DNA from: Nesterenkonia massiliensis
GTDB lineage: Bacteria > Actinomycetota > Actinomycetes > Actinomycetales > Micrococcaceae
Assembly: GCF_000455245.1 (NCBI RefSeq)
Contig: NZ_HG005165.1
Location: 524,688-564,042, forward strand
Reading direction: 5' to 3'
Length of the DNA stretch: 39,355 bases
Under the pieces are notes generated by a model that did not search any database, was not told where the DNA came from, and worked only from the letters and a program-made list of their open reading frames with translations. Numbering within the stretch: position 1 is the stretch's first letter; each line of letters starts with the position of its first letter. Below are positions 24,965 to 39,145 of this stretch, in pieces. A program made the position numbers and the translations under genes.

Positions 24965-26056
24965 GTGCGCATTTGTCTGATCGCCTCAAGCCAGTTCCCC
25001 ATCCGGGAGCCCTTCGCTGGGGGCTTGGAGGCCCACACCCACGCGACGGCGCGGACGCTGAAGTCCCGTGGTCACGATGTCACCCTCTTCGCCGCCGAAG
25101 GCAGCGACCCTGCCCTTGGCGCGCGCAGCCTGGTGCCCGAGCGCTTCACCGGAACAGAATGCGGAAGGCGCGATGTCTCCGCTGCCCCGGAGGAGTGGAT
25201 GCGCCAGCACCATGCTTATCTGGGGCTGATGCTGCAGCTGGCAGAGTCCCGTGACTTCGACGTCATCCACAACAATTCCATCCACCACCTGCCGGTAGCG
25301 ATGTCGTCGCTGCTGAAGACACCGATGGTCACCACACTGCACACACCACCCACGCCGTGGCTTGAGTCCGCAGTGGAGTACTCCTCCCCGCGCACCGTCT
25401 TTGTCGCTGTCAGCTCAGCCACCGCGCGTGCTTGGGGTTCGGTGGCCGAAGCGTCGGTGATCACCAACGGAGTCGATACCGATCAGTGGTGCCCGCTGCC
25501 CGGAACGCAACGATCCGGTGCAGCGGTGTGGACCGGACGGTTTGTTCCGGAGAAGGCACCGCATCTGGCCATCGATGCCGCCCGCCGGGCCGGGGTACCG
25601 ATCATCCTGGCGGGCCCGGTGATGGATCAGGGCTACTACCAGGCGCAGATCGCTCCGCGCCTAGGTGAGGACGCCATCTACCGGGGCCATCTGGACCACC
25701 GGGAACTGCATGAACTTGTGGCCTCCGCTTCTGTAGCGGTGGTCAGCTCGCAGTGGGATGAGCCCTACGGGCTTGTAGCGGCCGAGGCGATGTCCTGCGG
25801 CACACCGGTGGCGGCCACTCCGCGCGGTGGCCTGGTGGAGATCGTCGGACCAGCCGGTGGAGTACTGGCCCGAGATGATTCGGAGAATGCGCTGGCTGCG
25901 GCAATTCTGAATGCTCTAAAGCTGCCGCGGGAGCGAGTGCGGCGCTATGCACTGGGTGCGCTTTCGCTGAACCGGATGGTCAGCGAATACGAGCAGCTCT
26001 ACCGCGCGCTCTCCCCCGTCTCTGCGGCAGCCCAGGACCGAGCGGGGGCCGCATGA
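24965..26056 (+). CDS. Family 4 glycosyltransferase (GT-B fold)
   Basis: 363 residues. The N-terminal nucleotide-fold half begins with PIREPFAGGLEAHTHATAR, the usual acceptor-side GG loop of GT4 enzymes; VVTTLHTP and ITNGVDTDQW follow. The C-terminal half has GRFVPEKAPHLAIDA and the donor-binding EX7E pair Glu266 and Glu274 in DEPYGLVAAEAMSCGTP. It transfers a sugar from a nucleotide donor with retention of configuration. The start GTG 24965 has no ribosome site, only a T run. Its stop overlaps the next gene (ATGA). First of three glycosyltransferase genes in one operon. Confidence 0.92.
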   Translation: MRICLIASSQFPIREPFAGGLEAHTHATARTLKSRGHDVTLFAAEGSDPALGARSLVPERFTGTECGRRDVSAAPEEWMRQHHAYLGLMLQLAESRDFDVIHNNSIHHLPVAMSSLLKTPMVTTLHTPPTPWLESAVEYSSPRTVFVAVSSATARAWGSVAEASVITNGVDTDQWCPLPGTQRSGAAVWTGRFVPEKAPHLAIDAARRAGVPIILAGPVMDQGYYQAQIAPRLGEDAIYRGHLDHRELHELVASASVAVVSSQWDEPYGLVAAEAMSCGTPVAATPRGGLVEIVGPAGGVLARDDSENALAAAILNALKLPRERVRRYALGALSLNRMVSEYEQLYRALSPVSAAAQDRAGAA

Positions 26057-27180
26057 TCGGCTGCTATATCCATCACCAGGGTGCCGGTCACCTCCACCGC
26101 TCCCTGACCTGGGCCCGCGCCTGGTCTCAGCTGAACCAGGAGCCCGTCGCAGGTCTCTCCAGTCTGGAGCAGCCCAGGGACTGGCCCGGTCCGTGGGTCA
26201 GCTTGGAAGCCGACGACGACGGCAGCACCAGTCATCACAGCGCCGGGGGTGTGCTGCACTGGGCACCAGTCCACCACGCTGGGCTGCGGTCGAGAATGAC
26301 CAGGATCTCCCAGTGGATCTCCTCCGAGAATCCGGATCTGCTGGTCGCGGATGTCTCAGTCGAAGTCGCCATGCTGGCCAGGCTGCACGGGGTACCGGTG
26401 GTGACGGTGGCACTGCCGGGTGACCGCACTGACCGCACGCATGCCCTGGGCTATGAGATTTCCTCGGCAATTGCCGGATTCTGGCCCCCTGCAGCTAACG
26501 GCATTATCGGCAGGCAGGACCAGGGCGCGGCAGTCTCGCCCTTGGGCGCGATCTCCCGCTTTCCGCCCGCAGCGGCGGACAATCCAGACTCCACGCGCGC
26601 ACCGAGGAGCCCAGAGGCACCTGAGATCCTGATCATGGGCGGACGCGGGGGCGGAGGTATTCCCCCTGCTGCCCAGCGGGCTGTCACTGCGGCATTTCCG
26701 CAGTCAAGGATCACCCACATAGGTGGCACCACAGGCACTTGGACCTCGGATCCCTGGAGTGCGCTGCAGCAGGCCGACGTGGTGGTGACCGCAGCGGGAC
26801 AGAACTCTCTTGCCGAGATCGCAGCCAGCCGAACACCAGCGGTGGTTTACGCCCTGGACCGCCCTCATCAGGAACAGCGGCACACCCTGGAATCGCTGCG
26901 GCGAGGACCATGGCCAGTGATCCCAGCACCGGAATCTGCCGACGCCGTGGCGTGGCGAGACGCGCTCGAGGCGGCACTGCAGCTCAACGGTAATGACTGG
27001 AGGACCTGGTGCGACGGTCAGGCTCAGCACCGCTTCGCCGCTCTGCTGGAGCAGGTCCGAGACTCCATGAAACCGCACCCAGTGCAATCCCACCCAGCAC
27101 AATCCCACCCAGTGCAATCCCCACCGTCCATCCCCACCGTGCAGGCATCTCCGGGACCGAGCCCCCGGACAAACCAGTGA
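26053..27180 (+). CDS. GT-B glycosyltransferase, MurG/GT28-like
   Basis: 375 residues, start ATG 26053 overlapping the preceding stop. The N-terminus (YIHHQGAGHLHRSLTWARA) has the G-x-G-H loop of MurG-like and UDP-glycosyltransferase enzymes, and LLVADVSVEVAMLARLHGVPVV is the typical acceptor-domain helix. The C-terminal domain has ILIMGGRGGGG and a donor site around VVVTAAGQNSLAEIAASRTPAV (243-264) followed by DRPHQEQRHTLESL. Sugar donor and acceptor are not known. The last 35 residues are Pro/Ser/His-rich with repeated HPVQS units and are probably disordered. Not a peptidoglycan MurG: it is outside the division cluster and lacks close similarity. Confidence 0.78.
   Translation: MIGCYIHHQGAGHLHRSLTWARAWSQLNQEPVAGLSSLEQPRDWPGPWVSLEADDDGSTSHHSAGGVLHWAPVHHAGLRSRMTRISQWISSENPDLLVADVSVEVAMLARLHGVPVVTVALPGDRTDRTHALGYEISSAIAGFWPPAANGIIGRQDQGAAVSPLGAISRFPPAAADNPDSTRAPRSPEAPEILIMGGRGGGGIPPAAQRAVTAAFPQSRITHIGGTTGTWTSDPWSALQQADVVVTAAGQNSLAEIAASRTPAVVYALDRPHQEQRHTLESLRRGPWPVIPAPESADAVAWRDALEAALQLNGNDWRTWCDGQAQHRFAALLEQVRDSMKPHPVQSHPAQSHPVQSPPSIPTVQASPGPSPRTNQ
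27076..27120. repeat. Three 15-bp tandem repeats at the end of the GT28-like gene
   Basis: CACCCAGTGCAATCC (27076-27090), a copy with two changes (27091-27105) and an exact third copy (27106-27120). They encode HPVQS/HPAQS/HPVQS in the C-terminal tail. Confidence 0.92.
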
Positions 27181-27190
27181 GGCATACCCT

Positions 27191-29299
27191 ATGACCCCGC
27201 ACCCCTACACCGCAGCCGCGGAGACTGACGCAAAGCCAGTCGGTTCGCCGACTGACGCCTTGGAGTCCCCCGCACCGGGGAAAGCACAGCGGCCGCGCAC
27301 GGTCATCATCACCACAGTGCATGGCCGCCATGATCATCTGCGCAAACAACGTGAGGCCTTAGGGGCCAGCAGTCTGCTCCCAGATGAGCACCTGATCATC
27401 ACTATGGACGACGACGAGCTGGCTCAGGCCCTGGCCAACGAGTCGGCATCTGAGGTGCCCACCCGAACTGCGGCAGCGCCGTCGTCCCTCAGCGCAGCGC
27501 TGCCGCTGGCTGCCGCGCGCAACATAGGCGCCGAGCTCAGCAAGAGCGCACTCCGGCCTTCTACAGCTGCGCACTCGGAATCCTCCGAATTCAGCTCAAC
27601 CGAAGGTCACGCCGAGGATCTGCTGATCTTCTTGGATGTCGACTGCATACCGCACCCGGACCTGGTTCGGGGATACCTTCAGGCAGCCCAGGAGAATCCC
27701 GGCGCGCTCTTGTGCGGACCAGTGGCCTACCTTCCAGAGACGGACCTCCAAGATCTCAGCCCCCGGTACCTAGACTCTCTGGCCGAGCCCCACCCGGCGC
27801 GTCCGGCCCCCGAGCCCGGACAGTACACGCAGGACTCCAACTACGACCTCTTCTGGTCGCTCTCCTTCGCTGTGCGCAGGAGCGTCTGGGAGAACATCGG
27901 CGGCTTCGATGAACGGTTCACCGGATACGGCGGGGAGGACACCGACTTCGCTCAGCAGGCCCGCTCGCGCGGCGTCGGCCTCTGCTGGGTGGGCGCGGCG
28001 CGTGCCTATCACCAGCACCATCCGGTATCGAATCCCCCGGTAGAGCACGTTGATGACATCCTGGCCAACGGTCGCCGGTTTGCGAATAAGTGGGGACGTT
28101 GGCCCATGCAGGGTTGGATTGCCGCTTTTCAAGAACGCGGCCTGGTCACCTGTCTCAGTCGCGACGGCGACACTGATTTTGTCCGCACTATCCGGGTGGC
28201 CTCTGTGCCGCAATCCCATGTCTATATCCGCCACTTGTCCCCTCCCGAGGGAGAACGCAGCGCAGTGGTGAGGCTGCCGGATCCTCCGGCGCGGCGTGAG
28301 GACCACCCCACAGGCGCCCCATGGTGGCCACCGCGGATGCTTGATCCCGAATGGATCCTGGCCCCACGTGGACCCGAGGAGGGTTTTGACATCTTCCACA
28401 TACACTTCGGTTTTGATGCAGAGTCCCCGCAGCGGCTGCACGAGGTGGTCGATGCTCTCGACACCAAGGGTGTGCCGCTGGTCTACACGGTTCATGACCT
28501 GCAGAATCCGCACCATACCGACACCGCCCTGCACACCGCACAACTGGATGTGCTGATTCCGCGTGCCGCGGCGGTGATCACCCTCAGCCGCAGGGCCGCG
28601 GAGATCATTGAGGACCGCTGGGGTGTGCGTGCCCGGGTCGTACCGCATCCTCATGTGGTGGATCTGCCACTGATCCAGGACTACGGAGTGTCTCCGCGAC
28701 GCAAACCTGAGGAGTTCCGTCTGGGAATTCACCTCAAGAGCCTGCGCCAGAACATGTCGACCATACCCGTACTGGAGGCTGCTCTGGAGGCGGTGCACGG
28801 GATCCCCGGTGGCATCCTGCAGGTCAATGTCCATCGGGATGTGTACGACGACGCCGGGCCCGAGTTCAATCCCCAGAAACACGATCCTGAGCTGGTTCAG
28901 TGGCTCAACACCCATCCGGTGGATCTTCGGGTGCACAACTATTTCACTGACGGTGAGCTCTACGACTACATCGCTGGCCTGCACGCCTCGCTGCTCCCCT
29001 ATCGCTTCGGGACACATTCGGGATGGATGGAGGCCTGTCACGATCTGGGCACCACAGTGATCGCACCCGATGTGGGGTGTTATGCCAGCCAGGGAGCTGA
29101 CCTGACCTACCGCTGGAGGTGCGATGAGCTCGATGTTTCTTCACTGCGGCAAGCTGTCAGGGATGCCGCAGTGGCGCACGGCAGACGCGCAGAGGATTCC
29201 AGTCACAGGTGCACACAGCGTCGGCAGTGGCGCACAGACCAGCGCCGGCAGATCGCGGCAGTCCACGAGGATGTCTACCGCCAGCTGTTGCAGCGGTAG
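27191..29299 (+). CDS. Bifunctional glycosyltransferase: GT2 (Glyco_transf_7C type) fused to GT4-like
   Basis: 702 residues, ATG 27191 with GAGG eight bases upstream, ten bases after the previous stop. Residues 35-325 are a GT-A domain: TVIITTVHGRHDHL, metal-binding Asp149-Val-Asp151 in FLDVDCIP, and GGFDERFTGYGGEDTDF (237-253), the galactosyltransferase-type C motif with its catalytic acids. A low-complexity insert (about 83-140, rich in Ser, Ala, Thr, Glu) interrupts this domain before the DVD. Residues 395-702 form a GT-B half: FDIFHIHFGF, PLVYTVHDLQNP, RVVPHPHVV, and a donor-site helix HSGWMEACHDLGTTVIAPD (609-627). One polypeptide thus has two potential transferases. The product is unknown; the operon suggests an oligosaccharide or glycolipid. 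Confidence 0.88.
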   Translation: MTPHPYTAAAETDAKPVGSPTDALESPAPGKAQRPRTVIITTVHGRHDHLRKQREALGASSLLPDEHLIITMDDDELAQALANESASEVPTRTAAAPSSLSAALPLAAARNIGAELSKSALRPSTAAHSESSEFSSTEGHAEDLLIFLDVDCIPHPDLVRGYLQAAQENPGALLCGPVAYLPETDLQDLSPRYLDSLAEPHPARPAPEPGQYTQDSNYDLFWSLSFAVRRSVWENIGGFDERFTGYGGEDTDFAQQARSRGVGLCWVGAARAYHQHHPVSNPPVEHVDDILANGRRFANKWGRWPMQGWIAAFQERGLVTCLSRDGDTDFVRTIRVASVPQSHVYIRHLSPPEGERSAVVRLPDPPARREDHPTGAPWWPPRMLDPEWILAPRGPEEGFDIFHIHFGFDAESPQRLHEVVDALDTKGVPLVYTVHDLQNPHHTDTALHTAQLDVLIPRAAAVITLSRRAAEIIEDRWGVRARVVPHPHVVDLPLIQDYGVSPRRKPEEFRLGIHLKSLRQNMSTIPVLEAALEAVHGIPGGILQVNVHRDVYDDAGPEFNPQKHDPELVQWLNTHPVDLRVHNYFTDGELYDYIAGLHASLLPYRFGTHSGWMEACHDLGTTVIAPDVGCYASQGADLTYRWRCDELDVSSLRQAVRDAAVAHGRRAEDSSHRCTQRRQWRTDQRRQIAAVHEDVYRQLLQR

Positions 29300-29358: not shown

Positions 29359-29526
29359 ATGGCTGAGAAGCACTCCCCCAAGGATGAGCAGAACGAATCT
29401 AAGAAGAAGATGATCTCCACCGGCGTCCCCGCAGCACTGGGCGGAATGGGGGCCACCGGCCCCATTCAGATCGTACGGAAAAAGGATGCGCAGCCTGAGC
29501 CGGGTTCAGCTGCCGAGGATCAGTAG
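29359..29526 (+). CDS. Unrecognised 55-residue hydrophilic protein
   Basis: Begins MAEKHSPKDEQNESKKK, has a glycine-rich middle (TGVPAALGGMGATGPIQIV) and ends in an acidic tail. ATG 29359 has AAGGAG about 11 bases upstream, and codon use resembles its neighbours. Charged ends around a short GVPAALGGMG stretch suggest a partly disordered small protein. It follows the glycosyltransferase operon by 59 bases and may be part of it or have its own promoter. I do not recognise the family. Confidence 0.6.
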   Translation: MAEKHSPKDEQNESKKKMISTGVPAALGGMGATGPIQIVRKKDAQPEPGSAAEDQ

Positions 29527-29632: not shown

Positions 29633-31216
29633 ATGAGCCTGCGCCATCTCATCGCCGAACAGGTCCTGTTGGAGGGTGAGCTGGTGCCTGCCCACCTTGA
29701 GGTCGGTGACGATGGAATCATCCGTCGCATTCACCGCCTGGAGGCCGGCAGCACGGCCAGGCGCGCGGCTATTGTCCGCGCTCGAGAGGTCTCGGCGGGG
29801 GCAGGAATGCACCTTGTGCGACCGCGCATGGTAGTTCTGCCAGGCGCGGTCGATACCCATGTCAGCTTCTGCGAACCCGGTCATGTTCAACGCGAGGGCT
29901 TTTCCTCCGGCACTATGGCTGCGGCCCTGGGCGGGGTCACGTCGGTGCTGGAGATGCCGCATTCCAGCACCCCGGTCACGGTCCGGGCAGAAGACCTTCA
30001 GCACAAACGCTCGGCTGCAGCCGAGCAGGCCTATGTGGACATTGGATTCTGGGCTGCTCTGGTCCCGCCGTCGGTGCAGAGCCGCGGACGTGTGAGCGGC
30101 CAGGATAGACCGAGCTGCGCCGAACCCGAAGAGCTCTGGGAATCCGGAGCCTTCGGGTTCGTCTGCACCCTGCTGCCCTTTGACCACTCAACTGATGCGC
30201 TGAGGTCTGCCGGTACGCCTCAGCTCCTTCCGCTCACACCTGCTGAACTTCGCGAAGCGATGATGCGCATCGCTCGGTTCGACGGTCTGCTTGCCGTTCA
30301 TGCAGAAGACTCCCGTACTGTTGCCGCCGCCGCGGGCGCCACCGGCGCGAACCTCTCCTCCCGCCTCGCCTGGGCACAGGCTGCGGCACGATACTCCGCG
30401 TGGGCCGCCAGCCGTCCGGCCGAGGCGGAGGTAATTGCGGTGGAAGGGCTGATCGATGCCGTCCGTGAGACAGGATGCCGGACACACATTCTGCAAGTCT
30501 CCACTGCTGGCGCTCTGGAGCTTATCGCCGCGGCCAAGGCAGAGGGACTTCCGCTGAGCGCAGAGACTTGCACCCACTATCTCAGCTTCGCCGCCGAGAG
30601 CGTCCCCGTGGGATCCCCTGAATTTGTCTGCTGGCCGCCGCTGCGGGACGTCGGGCATCGCGAGGCCCTGTGGCAGGGGCTTCAGGAGGGAATCCTCGAC
30701 GCCGTAGTCTCCGCCCATTCCCCCACCACCAGGCAGGAGAAGCTCCGCGGTGCAGCAGATCTGCGACTTGCCCGTCCGGGGATCTCCGGACTTCAGGTGG
30801 GATTCGCTGCGCTGGCCTCTGAAGCCAGGTCACGCGGAATCGGGCTGGCAGAGGTCAGCCGCTGGACATCGGGCGGCCCCGCCGAGCTTTGCCGGTTGCA
30901 CCAGAAAGGCGACATTGCTCCCGGCAGGTATGCCGACCTACTCATCTATGACCCCGAGGAGACCCACGTGGTATCAGCCGCAGGACTGGCGCATAAGACG
31001 CCCCTTTCGGCCTATGAAGGAATGGAGATTCACGGCACGGTGGTGGGCTCAGTGCTCCGGGGGATGCAGCTTTTCACCGCACAGGACAGCTCCGCCACAC
31101 TTGGCCAGCATGGCCAACTGCTCAGTGGGCCAGGTACCGGTGTACCGCTGGGGCCAGGGCCGCACCAGGTAGGTTCCGGGCCCCGCCGTCGTCATCTGCG
31201 GGCGGTCAGCGCATGA
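29633..31216 (+). CDS. Allantoinase/dihydroorotase-like protein with lost metal ligands
   Basis: 527 residues. It aligns by eye with allantoinase AllB throughout: GAVDTHVSFCEPGHVQREGF, TMAAALGGVTSVLEMP, LAVHAED, THILQVSTAG, SAETCTHYL, VVSAHSPTTRQEK, and a typical C-terminal KGDIAPGRYADLLIYDP. Of the six residues that hold the two metals in E. coli AllB (His59, His61, carboxylated Lys146, His186, His242, Asp315), only the first and fourth are kept (His76, His223); the others are Ser78, Val177, Gln288 and Ala361. Normal hydrolysis is therefore unlikely. The C-terminal 60 residues are Gly/Pro/Arg-rich and extra. The frame is full length and uninterrupted, so it is maintained or only recently relaxed. 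The stop overlaps the IclR start. Confidence 0.85.
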   Translation: MSLRHLIAEQVLLEGELVPAHLEVGDDGIIRRIHRLEAGSTARRAAIVRAREVSAGAGMHLVRPRMVVLPGAVDTHVSFCEPGHVQREGFSSGTMAAALGGVTSVLEMPHSSTPVTVRAEDLQHKRSAAAEQAYVDIGFWAALVPPSVQSRGRVSGQDRPSCAEPEELWESGAFGFVCTLLPFDHSTDALRSAGTPQLLPLTPAELREAMMRIARFDGLLAVHAEDSRTVAAAAGATGANLSSRLAWAQAAARYSAWAASRPAEAEVIAVEGLIDAVRETGCRTHILQVSTAGALELIAAAKAEGLPLSAETCTHYLSFAAESVPVGSPEFVCWPPLRDVGHREALWQGLQEGILDAVVSAHSPTTRQEKLRGAADLRLARPGISGLQVGFAALASEARSRGIGLAEVSRWTSGGPAELCRLHQKGDIAPGRYADLLIYDPEETHVVSAAGLAHKTPLSAYEGMEIHGTVVGSVLRGMQLFTAQDSSATLGQHGQLLSGPGTGVPLGPGPHQVGSGPRRRHLRAVSA

Positions 31217-35895: not shown

Positions 35896-36822
35896 CTATA
35901 TGGACTCACTTGGGCCGCGTTTTTGCGATGCGGGGCTAAACACCCATGGCTGCTTCGGCAGTCGAGAGGGATCAAAAGTCTTCACAGACTGTTCCAAAGG
36001 ACCACGGGGCAGCCCCAGCGAGGCTAGGAGCTCATCGCGGACTTGTTCCGGGCTTCGTCCCAACTCACTCAGCTGCCCCAGAGTCACCGCGCCGTCGCGC
36101 TTGGCCAGCCGCTGACCCTGCCGGTTGAGCACCAGCGGAACATGGGCATATTGCACCGACTCAGCGGCCCGTTGCCCGTAGAGCAGGCCGCGCAGATACA
36201 CCTGCCGCGGGGTGGAGCTGGCCAGGTCATCTCCGCGCACCACTTGGTCCACACCGGTTAAATGATCGTCCACCACGACGGCGAGGTTATATGCGGCAGT
36301 GCCGTCATTGCGCACCAGCACCAGATCATCCACAAGTCCGGTAACCTCGCCAAGCAGCAGGTCAGCCACCCGGTACTCGCCGGCTTCAGCCTTCAGCCGC
36401 AGCGCCGGAGGCCGCTGCCGGCGGCGCTGGCGACGTTCTGCATCGCCGAGATCTCGGCAGGTGCCGGGATAAGCCCCGGGCGGTGCGTGCGGCGCCCGGG
36501 GCGCGTCCTGGATTTCGCGGCGGGTACAGAAGCACTCGTAGACCAGACCGGCCTCGCGCAGCTGGCCCACGGCGGCCCCGTAATGGCGCTGCCGCTGGGA
36601 CTGCCACAGTGGCTCGCCGCTGAAGGTGATGCCAATTGCCCTCAGGTCCTTGAACTGACGCTCGGCGGAACCGGGGATGGTCCGGCCGGCGTCCAGATCT
36701 TCAAAGCGCAGCAGCAGCGGACGGCCGGTTGAAGCGGCAAAGAGCCAGGACAACAGGGCGGTGCGCAGGTTCCCCAGGTGCAGGTCCCCTGAGGGGCTGG
36801 GGGCGTAGCGACCGGCGGACAT
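35896..36822 (-). CDS. gluQ: Glutamyl-Q tRNA(Asp) synthetase
   Basis: 308 residues, the short GluRS-like form without an anticodon-binding domain. The HIGH-type motif is SPSGDLHLGNLRTAL, the KMSKS-type motif is RLAKRDG (238-244), and the zinc site is Cys97, Cys99, Tyr118 and Cys122 (FCTRREI, YPGTCR), all typical of GluQ-RS. It activates glutamate and attaches it to queuosine at position 34 of tRNA-Asp. ATG 36822 has TAGGAT six bases upstream. Confidence 0.93.
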   Translation of the reverse strand: MSAGRYAPSPSGDLHLGNLRTALLSWLFAASTGRPLLLRFEDLDAGRTIPGSAERQFKDLRAIGITFSGEPLWQSQRQRHYGAAVGQLREAGLVYECFCTRREIQDAPRAPHAPPGAYPGTCRDLGDAERRQRRRQRPPALRLKAEAGEYRVADLLLGEVTGLVDDLVLVRNDGTAAYNLAVVVDDHLTGVDQVVRGDDLASSTPRQVYLRGLLYGQRAAESVQYAHVPLVLNRQGQRLAKRDGAVTLGQLSELGRSPEQVRDELLASLGLPRGPLEQSVKTFDPSRLPKQPWVFSPASQKRGPSESI

Positions 36823-36927: not shown

Positions 36928-37506
36928 ATGCCTGCACCCAGCACTGCCACCCCAGCCACCGCTGAGGACACTGTTGAGCACACTGCTGAGCACACTGCCC
37001 AGAAAGCCGGCAATGGTGTGCCCATGCCCGCAGACGGCCCCCGGCATAGGATGCTTGAGACTGACTCCTGCACCCGCTGGCTCGGTGGAGAGGTTCTGCT
37101 GGCCGAGCCTGGGCACGCCAAGCTGCGTATGCGCGTGCGGGAAGAGATGACCAATGGGTTCAAAATCGCCCACGGCGGCATGATCTTCACCTTGGCTGAT
37201 ACCTGTTTCGCCATGGCCTGCAACCATCCCGACGGCGATGACGGCACGATCACCGTGGCCTCCGGGCCGGTACACCTGACATCCGACGGGCAGGTCATGC
37301 GAACTCGGGACCGGCCTGACAGAGAGCCTGGGGTCAGAGACTGCCCAGGACATCCGCGGCTGCGGCATCGGCGTCGGCGAGGCTTCGTGCTGTGGTGGCG
37401 GGGTCCCCGCCCGCCTCGGCCGCGATCGCGGTGCCCCACTGCGCTGAGCTCAGTTGCAGTCCCAGCGCGTAGAGGCCTTCACTGGGTCGGCCGTCCGCGC
37501 CGATGA
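36928..37506 (+). pseudogene. paaI: Truncated PaaI-type hotdog thioesterase
   Basis: AAGGAG lies seven bases before ATG 36928, and residues 1-112 read as a normal PaaI start: MLETDSCTRWLGGEVLL, then NGFKIAHGGMIFTLADTCFAMACN with the hotdog HGG motif and catalytic Asp, and TITVASGPVHL. After about 37270 similarity stops and the frame continues as Arg/Pro-rich residues through the 3' end of the gene on the other strand to a stop at 37506. The last third of the thioesterase fold (the final strands) is missing. PaaI hydrolyses CoA esters of the phenylacetate pathway; no other paa gene is present. N-terminal residues contain a VEHTAEHTA repeat. Likely a deletion relic. Confidence 0.75.
36961..36996. 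repeat. Three 12-bp tandem repeats in paaI
   Basis: GCTGAGGACACT, GTTGAGCACACT and GCTGAGCACACT follow each other and encode AEDT-VEHT-AEHT-like units near the N-terminus. Confidence 0.8.
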
Positions 37507-39109
37507 GCTGGTGCGGCTGGTCAGTCACATCAAAGCCCTTGCCTGGGCGCGGGCCGTCGTCGCCGGTGGAGGTGATATGGGCTTGGCCGGGTCGGGCCAA
37601 TCCTTCCTCGAACAGCTGGTGGATCAGCAGAGAATCTGCCACCGACACCCGGTTGGGCGGCATCATCGCTTCCAGCAGCCAAGCTGCCCGGTAGGGCTCC
37701 CCCTGGACGTGCGGGGAGTCTGCGGCGAAGCAGCTGGCCTCCTCATCCACGGTGAATGCCGGATGTGGACCGAGGAATTCAACAATGCCAGCTCGCGCCA
37801 GGGCTGCCAGCTCCTCGATGCGCTGCACCGGTGGCCCGCTGGCCAACCCTTCCACGAGGGACTCGAACCAGGCCTCCACCTGGGTGATACGGCTTAGCGG
37901 GTCGATGTGCCCTGCGGTGATAAGCGCTTTGAGCTGCAGTCTGGCGGCGTGCATGGCGTTGAGCGCCATTTTCTCCGGACTTCCGGTCCCTGCAGCTGAG
38001 GCTGCAGCATCCTCCTGGAGCCAGCCCAGCATGGCTTGTTGGTACTCGGCACTGCTGCTGAAGCTGCTGGTGTCGAAGGGTCGGGCATAGCTGCGGATAT
38101 CGAAGCGCGGGGCGCCATCACCGGCTATGCGCCTGTAGGTGTCCTGCACATCAGCTTCAATAAGTGGCCACAGGTATTCAGCGAAGTCGAGCGGGCCGTG
38201 GACTTCCATCAGGCGTGCCACCGCATCCTTGGTGAAGTGCCGCAGCTGGATTCCTTCAGGCACGAATCCTGCGGCGGCAGTCTTGGCTCGGTAGGGAGTA
38301 CCGCGCCGCGAGCCTGCCACCAGTTTCGGTTCGGTCCCACTGGGCTGGTAGCGGAGCTTCTGTCCGGCTGGAGCATCTGGAACCGGTTCGAAACGACCAC
38401 CGCGCCCCTGACTCACCTGAATCATCAGGTCAAAGAAGTTCAACCCCATTCCGCGGACCAGCACGGTCTGCTCGGCGTCGATGGCGCTGTAGTCCACATC
38501 AGTGGGGATTGATGGCGGAATGTAGTGCAGATTCAGGCGCTCCGCGGCTTCCTGGAACTCCTGCGCCGCGCCGGTAAGCCGCGCCGGAATATGCCCGAGG
38601 CACAGCACTGCGGCGTGAACCTCGTGCCGCGCGCCGTTCTGGAGCTGCAGTTGATAGCCCCCGGCCGCCCGCTGGAGCCCGGTGGCGTAGCTGAAGATGG
38701 GTTCGACGACGACGCCGCGGTTCCGCAGTTGCTGCACCACCGCCTCATGCAGCCATGTCAGATAGTTGCCGTAATCCCGGCGTGCCGGATAGTCGGTGGT
38801 CTCTGCATCCCCGCGCCACTGCGCGAAGCTGCGCGAGACGGAGGAGGGACGCAGCTGCTCTTGGGTGCTGCCGACGGGCGCGGCGGTGGGGAAGCTGGCC
38901 GGAGTGTTCATCAGGTAGAGGTCTGATTGCTCGGGGTTCCAGACTCGTCCTGGTCCATGCGGTGCGGGGTCCACCACCAACACGCGCAGTTGCGCAGCGG
39001 AGGCGACGTCGTCGTTGTTCTCCAGGTGTGCCAGCAGGCGTTCCAGGAATGATGTGCCGCGAGGCCCGGCACCGATGACGGTGAGGACAAATTCCTGCTG
39101 GTTGCTCAT
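37334..39109 (-). CDS. FAD/NAD(P)-binding protein (NAD_binding_9 family)
   Basis: 591 residues. ATG 39109 begins MSNQQEFVLTVIGAGPRGTSFLERL, a Rossmann G-x-G-P-x-G dinucleotide site in the first 20 residues; ADPAPHGPGRVW-type sequence follows the first strand. The length and the late segments LRHFTKDAVARLMEVHG and LYALGLQLSSAQWGTAIAAEAG match the FAD-NAD(P)-binding family related to lysine/ornithine monooxygenases, but no reaction is established. TAGGGT lies seven bases upstream, suggesting a leaderless message; no ribosome site. Its 3' end is overlapped by the tail of the broken paaI frame. Confidence 0.8.
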   Translation of the reverse strand: MSNQQEFVLTVIGAGPRGTSFLERLLAHLENNDDVASAAQLRVLVVDPAPHGPGRVWNPEQSDLYLMNTPASFPTAAPVGSTQEQLRPSSVSRSFAQWRGDAETTDYPARRDYGNYLTWLHEAVVQQLRNRGVVVEPIFSYATGLQRAAGGYQLQLQNGARHEVHAAVLCLGHIPARLTGAAQEFQEAAERLNLHYIPPSIPTDVDYSAIDAEQTVLVRGMGLNFFDLMIQVSQGRGGRFEPVPDAPAGQKLRYQPSGTEPKLVAGSRRGTPYRAKTAAAGFVPEGIQLRHFTKDAVARLMEVHGPLDFAEYLWPLIEADVQDTYRRIAGDGAPRFDIRSYARPFDTSSFSSSAEYQQAMLGWLQEDAAASAAGTGSPEKMALNAMHAARLQLKALITAGHIDPLSRITQVEAWFESLVEGLASGPPVQRIEELAALARAGIVEFLGPHPAFTVDEEASCFAADSPHVQGEPYRAAWLLEAMMPPNRVSVADSLLIHQLFEEGLARPGQAHITSTGDDGPRPGKGFDVTDQPHQLIGADGRPSEGLYALGLQLSSAQWGTAIAAEAGGDPATTARSLADADAAAADVLGSL

Positions 39110-39116
39110 AGGAAAG

Positions 39117-39122
39117 ACCCTA
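39117..39122 (-). promoter_or_regulatory. -10 element for the leaderless FAD-binding protein gene
   Basis: TAGGGT on the minus strand, seven bases, then ATG 39109. No -35 match. Confidence 0.4.
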
Positions 39123-39145
39123 CCGGGATCAGCGCGGGTCATATT

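Follow-up and report, generated by a model that had tools for sequence, protein, structure and literature searches.

A conserved glycosyltransferase cassette in Nesterenkonia massiliensis and its relatives, a candidate pathway for a short oligosaccharide

The window analysed here, a stretch of 39,355 nucleotides from Nesterenkonia massiliensis (RefSeq assembly GCF_000455245.1, contig NZ_HG005165.1, positions 524,688 to 564,042), carries at 24965-29299 an operon of three genes, all on the + strand, with four glycosyltransferase (GT) domains: A, B and a fusion of C and D. This architecture, fusion included, had been proposed in a first-pass annotation of the DNA and was confirmed. Our results suggested that A-B-CD is a variant of a cassette, conserved and patchy in distribution, that makes one short hetero-oligosaccharide, most likely for the general stress response, a proposal that we regard as evenly poised between right and wrong. 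Taken singly, the enzymes fall into known fold families, and the pathway has no match in our NCBIfam, PADLOC and literature searches; in our best reading the cassette encodes an undescribed route to a short oligosaccharide whose decoration varies with lineage. We know of no product assigned to it. Among the publications listed by the literature search, which covered titles and the beginnings of abstracts and left most subscription papers outside its coverage, none describes the A-B-C-D gene set.

The window operon

The three open reading frames are uninterrupted, with catalytic motifs present, and comprise the following features, each given with its basis.

24965..26056, + strand: A, GT4 glycosyltransferase of GT-B type (open reading frame, Pfam, solved relatives, residue mapping)
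26053..26056, + strand: ATGA stop/start overlap of A and B, typical of translational coupling (sequence)
26053..27180, + strand: B, MurG/GT28-like glycosyltransferase (open reading frame, alignments, Pfam of homologues, PDB profile matches to YjiC and MurG, model and fold)
27191..28180, + strand: C, GT-A domain (GT2/Glyco_transf_7C) of the fusion (Pfam, alignment, profile match to 2z86)
28181..29299, + strand: D, GT4-fold GT-B domain of the fusion (alignment, Pfam of homologues, model, fold comparison, separate genes in the genus)

The glucosylsucrose synthase TeGSS (7fg9/8x3q) is the solved protein closest to A (E 1.2e-35; 31% identity over 332 aligned positions), and the tetrahydrobiopterin glucosyltransferase BGluT (5zer) matches at E 3.4e-24. 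A has its donor-phosphate residues (R192, K197, W264 and E266, by residue mapping) in common with TeGSS (R179, K184, W254 and E256), and residues of this type are kept in 37/37 and 5/5 alignment rows as well as in the window protein. From knowledge of the GT4 family, we take A and D to be retaining.

B retains the GxGH and RPxxEQ motifs and ends in a low-complexity, unconserved tail. As in MurG, it has a GT-B fold with a GT28 C-terminal domain; it shares 15-18% identity with the MurG entries listed and has a conserved motif of its own, DVSVEV. B has no NCBIfam match at E<=0.01 and thus reaches the cut-off of no named GT28 enzyme, and none of its annotated neighbours in the window is a cell-wall gene. 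By analogy with the GT28 and GT1 families it is presumably inverting.

The fusion gene spans 27191-29299. Its C domain, preceded by a leader of about 35 residues that has no counterpart in most relatives, retains DVD, GYGGEDTDF and HQxH motifs. It resembles GT-A enzymes of the chondroitin synthase and Glyco_transf_7C types in the DxD and GYGxEDTD motifs and in its profile match to 2z86 (E 1.2e-15), and presumably shares the metal dependence of DxD enzymes; whereas chondroitin synthase has two GT-A domains, C is a single catalytic domain, in the window joined to D. The D domain, which is a gene of its own in most relatives, carries a conserved LPYRFGTHSGWxEACxDLG motif and has the GT4 GT-B fold of sucrose-phosphate synthase (SPS). 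It has no sequence match to SPS models: its only Pfam family is PF13439, matched in 25/37 D homologues, and the fusion has no SPS match in NCBIfam at E<=0.01. When models of B and D were compared with the PDB, a comparison in which a family missing from the match lists does not count as excluded, the list for D was headed by soluble enzymes and also held PglA, PimA and TarM.

The first-pass annotation had allowed that all three proteins might belong to a known pathway such as teichoic acid or trehalose-lipid synthesis. Tested against NCBIfam models with their own cut-offs (matches reported at E<=0.01), A, B and the fusion each fell below the cut-off of every model listed. For the teichoic/teichuronic acid and trehalose-lipid families, TuaC was the one teichuronic model listed for A (15.5 bits, cut-off 550), and none was listed for B or C-D. 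A defence-system reading, raised by a GT4-conflict Pfam match, was rejected as there was no PADLOC match.

Conservation and fusions

Loci (L numbers) and genomes (G numbers) were compared in several sets: a family sample (Micrococcaceae; 149 genomes, 32 genera, 38 loci compared); a GTDB contig scan queried with C alone, from which the best 80 of at least 576 candidates were taken, all Actinomycetota by record title; a proteobacterial set (13 of 17 plasmid records examined; 11 Alpha- and 2 Gammaproteobacteria); a phylum sample (396 genomes, 17 loci compared for neighbours); and two further sets, family-plus-plasmid (n=46) and proteobacterial (n=11, overlapping the 46).

Although fetched by C alone, the 80 GTDB loci had B beside C in 80/80, A in 78/80 and D in 70/80, with the order D-A-B-C in 61/80. 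Since B adjoins C in every one of them, the objection foreseen in the first-pass annotation, that the trio might not be conserved as a unit in relatives, fails. Within the family, B was found in 37/149 genomes and 12/32 genera; A adjoins B in 37/38 loci, the exception (L075) starting at a contig end, and C is strong in 35/38 and D in 29/38. A, B and C were all matched in 13/13 proteobacterial plasmid loci, some in pieces, and D in 0/13. In the phylum sample B exceeded 280 bits in 15/396 genomes, the window genome included, and 104 genomes had a B match at E<=1e-10, mostly partial GT28 matches. The four-domain set occurs in Rhodococcus, Mycobacterium, Nocardia, Gordonia, Streptomyces, Nocardioides and Arthrobacter, and the A-B-C core in Methylobacterium, Sphingomonadaceae and Rhodobacterales. 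The four domains, A to D, correlate in their distance matrices (r 0.61 to 0.81 over 68 loci; 0/999 permutations as high), for which shared vertical descent may be partly responsible.

Relatives of the same genus have the cassette where the window has it, flanked by an S4-domain gene and a GDSL gene. D is missing in G089, and G138 has no B match. At L043 (G012) the whole cassette is interrupted: A and B show changes of frame and the fused C-D contains a stop, through sequencing error or decay.

The first-pass annotation had singled out the GT2-GT4 fusion. Since C and D are separate adjoining genes in three species of the same genus (G042, G066, G107), the fusion is not the defining feature. C-D fusion is also present in Brevibacterium (L149), D-C fusion at L068-L074, seven loci from a single genus, and D-A fusion at two loci (L054, L055); shared open frames of B-C (L039), A-B (L142) and D-B (L056) were not counted. 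That the same partners have been fused in several different ways speaks for a single pathway; it speaks against the window having evolved a special bifunctional enzyme. Thus the fusion appears secondary, and judged from these sequences the cassette seems to derive from four originally separate genes. It is the set of four domains, with primers and caps that vary by lineage, that deserves attention, rather than the fusion.

Accessory genes, stress genes and other neighbours

The first-pass annotation had noted no flippase, polymerase, nucleotide-sugar or export gene near the window operon. Elsewhere the cassette is less bare, and other lineages add decorating genes and primer-type fusions of an SPS-like GT4 with a sucrose-phosphatase (SPP)-like HAD domain. 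The neighbour clusters present in at least 6/80 loci whose representative was annotated comprise SDR, GAF-ANTAR, sigma, Zn-dehydrogenase, catalase, haem-oxygenase-like, acyl-CoA dehydrogenase, WcbI and GT genes (cluster 10 has no Pfam match); no exporter is among them. No non-GT neighbour is common to the whole cassette family, the widest non-GT cluster occupying 9/46 family-plus-plasmid loci (clusters were not annotated singly). Clusters 1 and 2, which overlie the cassette on the minus strand and lack a Pfam match, were dropped as likely spurious antisense frames of a simple gene caller.

A WcbI gene (a clear family member, PF18588 E 4.2e-70) together with two further glycosyltransferases, GT4' and GT2', accompanies 18/80 GTDB, 10/38 family and 2/17 phylum loci. 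In the family, WcbI is present in 18/149 genomes, and all 18 have B (hypergeometric 2.5e-13; within-genus permutation 84/100000); 19/37 B-carrying genomes, the window genome among them, lack it. WcbI comes from a Burkholderia capsule pathway, according to PMC4104973; here it is co-inherited with a GT cassette. In G005, G061, G083 and G103, WcbI, with GT2' adjoining, is distant from B or sits on a different contig; this unlinked pair is a putative pathway module that co-occurs with the cassette.

The SPS-SPP-like fusion stands at 9/13 proteobacterial loci (TIGR02472 up to 438.8 bits, below the cut-off of 576; PF05116 up to 206.5 bits) and at 0/80 GTDB actinobacterial loci. Genes for an acyl-CoA-dehydrogenase-like protein, a PIG-L deacetylase and a NodS-like methyltransferase adjoin the cassette on Sphingomonadaceae plasmids (L224, L228) and, together with SPS-SPP, in Jiella (L080). 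The same three-gene set occurs in actinobacteria, where PIG-L and methyltransferase are sometimes one protein. Such a fusion lies at 4698-6149 of L157 (Marihabitans asiaticum), beside acyl-CoA-dehydrogenase-like, GT2 and A-B-C genes, and has homologues at L166, L189, L196, L203, L119 and L128. The deacetylase and NodS-like genes suggest that the products of at least those lineages contain an amino sugar. Sulfotransferase genes are present at L079, L081, L225 and L226, and a pyruvyltransferase gene at L227.

Stress genes are repeatedly seen close to the cassette. In the flanks fetched, catalase homologues occur at 9/80 GTDB loci (8 of the long type; L172 short), 4/17 phylum loci, 3/46 family-plus-plasmid loci and, in the 11-locus proteobacterial set, at L224. 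SigB/F-type sigma genes are found at 14/80, 4/17, 1/46 and 0/11 loci, respectively; with CsbD, present at 1 GTDB locus, 20/80 have at least one of the three. The background was 148 genomes of the class (657 Mb, against 1.41 Mb for the 80 loci together), in which the same queries gave 140 catalase and 303 sigma matches, and family models found 42 long catalases as well as 708 SigB/F/G-type matches. From these, 0.30 catalases, 0.09 long catalases and 0.65 to 1.52 sigma genes were expected in the 80 loci. The enrichment is thus about 30-fold for catalase homologues, 89-fold for long catalases, and 22-fold (same query) or 9-fold (family model) for sigma genes, figures that a possible undercount of the background, scored on limited candidates per genome, would affect. 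Since the 80 loci are mutually related, the excess is real in size, but P values would not be. In the class sample, all three genomes that combine full-length B with a long catalase (G254, G286, G454) have one long catalase at most 9 kb away, and SigB/F genes lie near B in G445 and not in G361, G425 or G286. GAF-ANTAR regulators recur at 12/80 loci (L154, L160 and L175 among them) and Zn-dehydrogenases at 13/80, both without a background rate. None of the stress genes searched for, catalase and SigB/F included, is in the window.

Directly downstream of the window cassette lies an allantoinase-like amidohydrolase gene (29633-31216, +; TIGR03178 332.8 bits, just below the cut-off of 357.85), with no homologue in the same-genus loci searched. 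Just 3' of the fusion gene, an open reading frame of 55 residues (29359-29526, +) has a good ribosome-binding site and went unmatched in a search of 12 related loci. A FAD/NAD(P)-binding gene (37334-39142), which has a counterpart beside some Rhodobacterales copies, was rejected as a cassette partner: similar genes are confined to L081, L083 and the same-genus L040, so its position was taken to be a coincidence. The window also encodes GluQRS, a tRNA glutamyl-Q synthetase, here in an actinobacterium (35896-36822, -; NF004315 291 bits, cut-off 250).

Proposed pathway and alternatives

We propose that the cassette enzymes would act successively on one acceptor. The first step would fall to a GT4-type enzyme using a small soluble acceptor, D in the Actinomycetota; in many Alphaproteobacteria the SPS-SPP-like fusion would instead supply a free non-reducing disaccharide as primer, as SPS does beside glucosylsucrose synthase in Thermosynechococcus (PMC9909042). 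D, with a fold like that of SPS and other small-acceptor enzymes, may take the primer role, which is the least certain step. A would transfer a hexose, with retention, from a UDP-sugar, and B (UDP-N-acetylhexosamine is the suspected donor) and C (metal-dependent) would add outer sugars, the four transfers giving roughly a tri- to pentasaccharide. Some lineages would decorate it, through WcbI and the two extra GTs, through PIG-L and the NodS-like methyltransferase, or through a sulfotransferase or pyruvyltransferase, and the product would most likely be an intracellular protective or osmotic glycan of the general stress response. We infer the order of reactions, the donors, the small soluble acceptor, the stress role and the cytoplasmic location; the acceptor is probably small and soluble and the product probably stress-related. 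The earlier suggestion of a short oligosaccharide built on a small acceptor thus gains partial support, from conservation and from the solved relatives of A and the top structural matches of D, which fit a small-molecule acceptor. Somewhat more tentatively, the cassette may represent a widespread class of intracellular stress glycans with a common A-B-C core, often beside catalases and SigB/F regulators, in which primers (D in Actinomycetota, SPS-SPP in Alphaproteobacteria) and caps (WcbI acylation, N-deacetylation with methylation, sulfation, pyruvylation) would differ by phylum.

Intracellular glycans of a related kind exist. Methylmannose polysaccharide (MMP) is a mycobacterial intracellular polysaccharide, acylated or methylated, and the MMP mannosyltransferase 7qsg matches A at 4.3e-13; the gene sets known for MMP and for methylglucose lipopolysaccharide (MGLP) differ from the cassette. 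Mycobacterial MGLP is described in PMC4555173 as an intracellular acylated or methylated glycan.

The acceptor could, less probably, be a lipid (phosphatidylglycerol, diacylglycerol or polyprenyl phosphate), with a glycolipid head group or short surface glycan made at the inner membrane face and exported by a general transporter. MurG, with the UGTs the nearest fold to B, uses a lipid-linked acceptor, and PglA, PimA and TarM appear in the structural list for D; the capsule origin of WcbI, the sulfotransferase and pyruvyltransferase genes beside some copies and a weak match of A to GlcN-phosphatidylglycerol synthase (48.7 bits, cut-off 480) point the same way. However, no exporter is among the recurrent annotated clusters, the closest solved relatives of A act on soluble acceptors, and SPS-SPP beside proteobacterial copies suggests a free sugar.

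Decoration of a special metabolite, a cofactor or a signal is an unlikely role for the cassette, the candidates being such compounds as a pterin, a redox cofactor or a Nod-factor-like amino-sugar signal. This would suit the likeness of A to the tetrahydrobiopterin enzyme, that of C (31.8 bits) and the WcbI-linked GT2' (91.6 bits) to mycofactocin MftF (cut-off 280), and the PIG-L and NodS-like genes of L224 and L157. However, no non-ribosomal peptide synthetase, polyketide synthase, radical SAM or pterin family is among the annotated recurrent neighbours, and a spread that takes in soil actinobacteria, Methylobacterium and marine Rhodobacterales points to a generic acceptor.

Very improbable is that A makes plain glucosylsucrose, as in cyanobacteria, for B, C and D to extend. 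TeGSS is the nearest solved protein to A; in Thermosynechococcus its gene (tll1591, GT4) adjoins the SPS gene tll1590, according to PMC9909042, much as many alphaproteobacterial cassettes adjoin the SPS-SPP-like fusion, and a stress link is common to both systems. B, C and D are nevertheless extra to that system, the actinobacterial loci are without SPS-SPP, and the sucrose-site and pocket residues W10, Y18, R117 and N122 of TeGSS are Q10, A18, P128 and L133 in the window protein. Since these residues differ, we do not file A as a glucosylsucrose synthase, nor claim sucrose for the window. As acceptor in this lineage sucrose is unsupported: there is no strong S6PP in the cassette genomes of the family, and the acceptor residues are unlike.

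That the cassette is a decaying remnant without present function in the window genome, as patchy presence and the interrupted or missing genes of G012, G089 and G138 might suggest, is hardly credible given three intact reading frames with catalytic motifs and a position between the S4 and GDSL genes that is kept within the genus.

The occurrence of the four-domain set across many genera, with no product known to us or turned up by our searches, suggests that a common bacterial carbohydrate has apparently been missed. If the oligosaccharide proposed here is a stress protectant, it would join trehalose, sucrose and glucosylglycerate, and the caps peculiar to each lineage would provide a ready series of enzymes and products for comparison.
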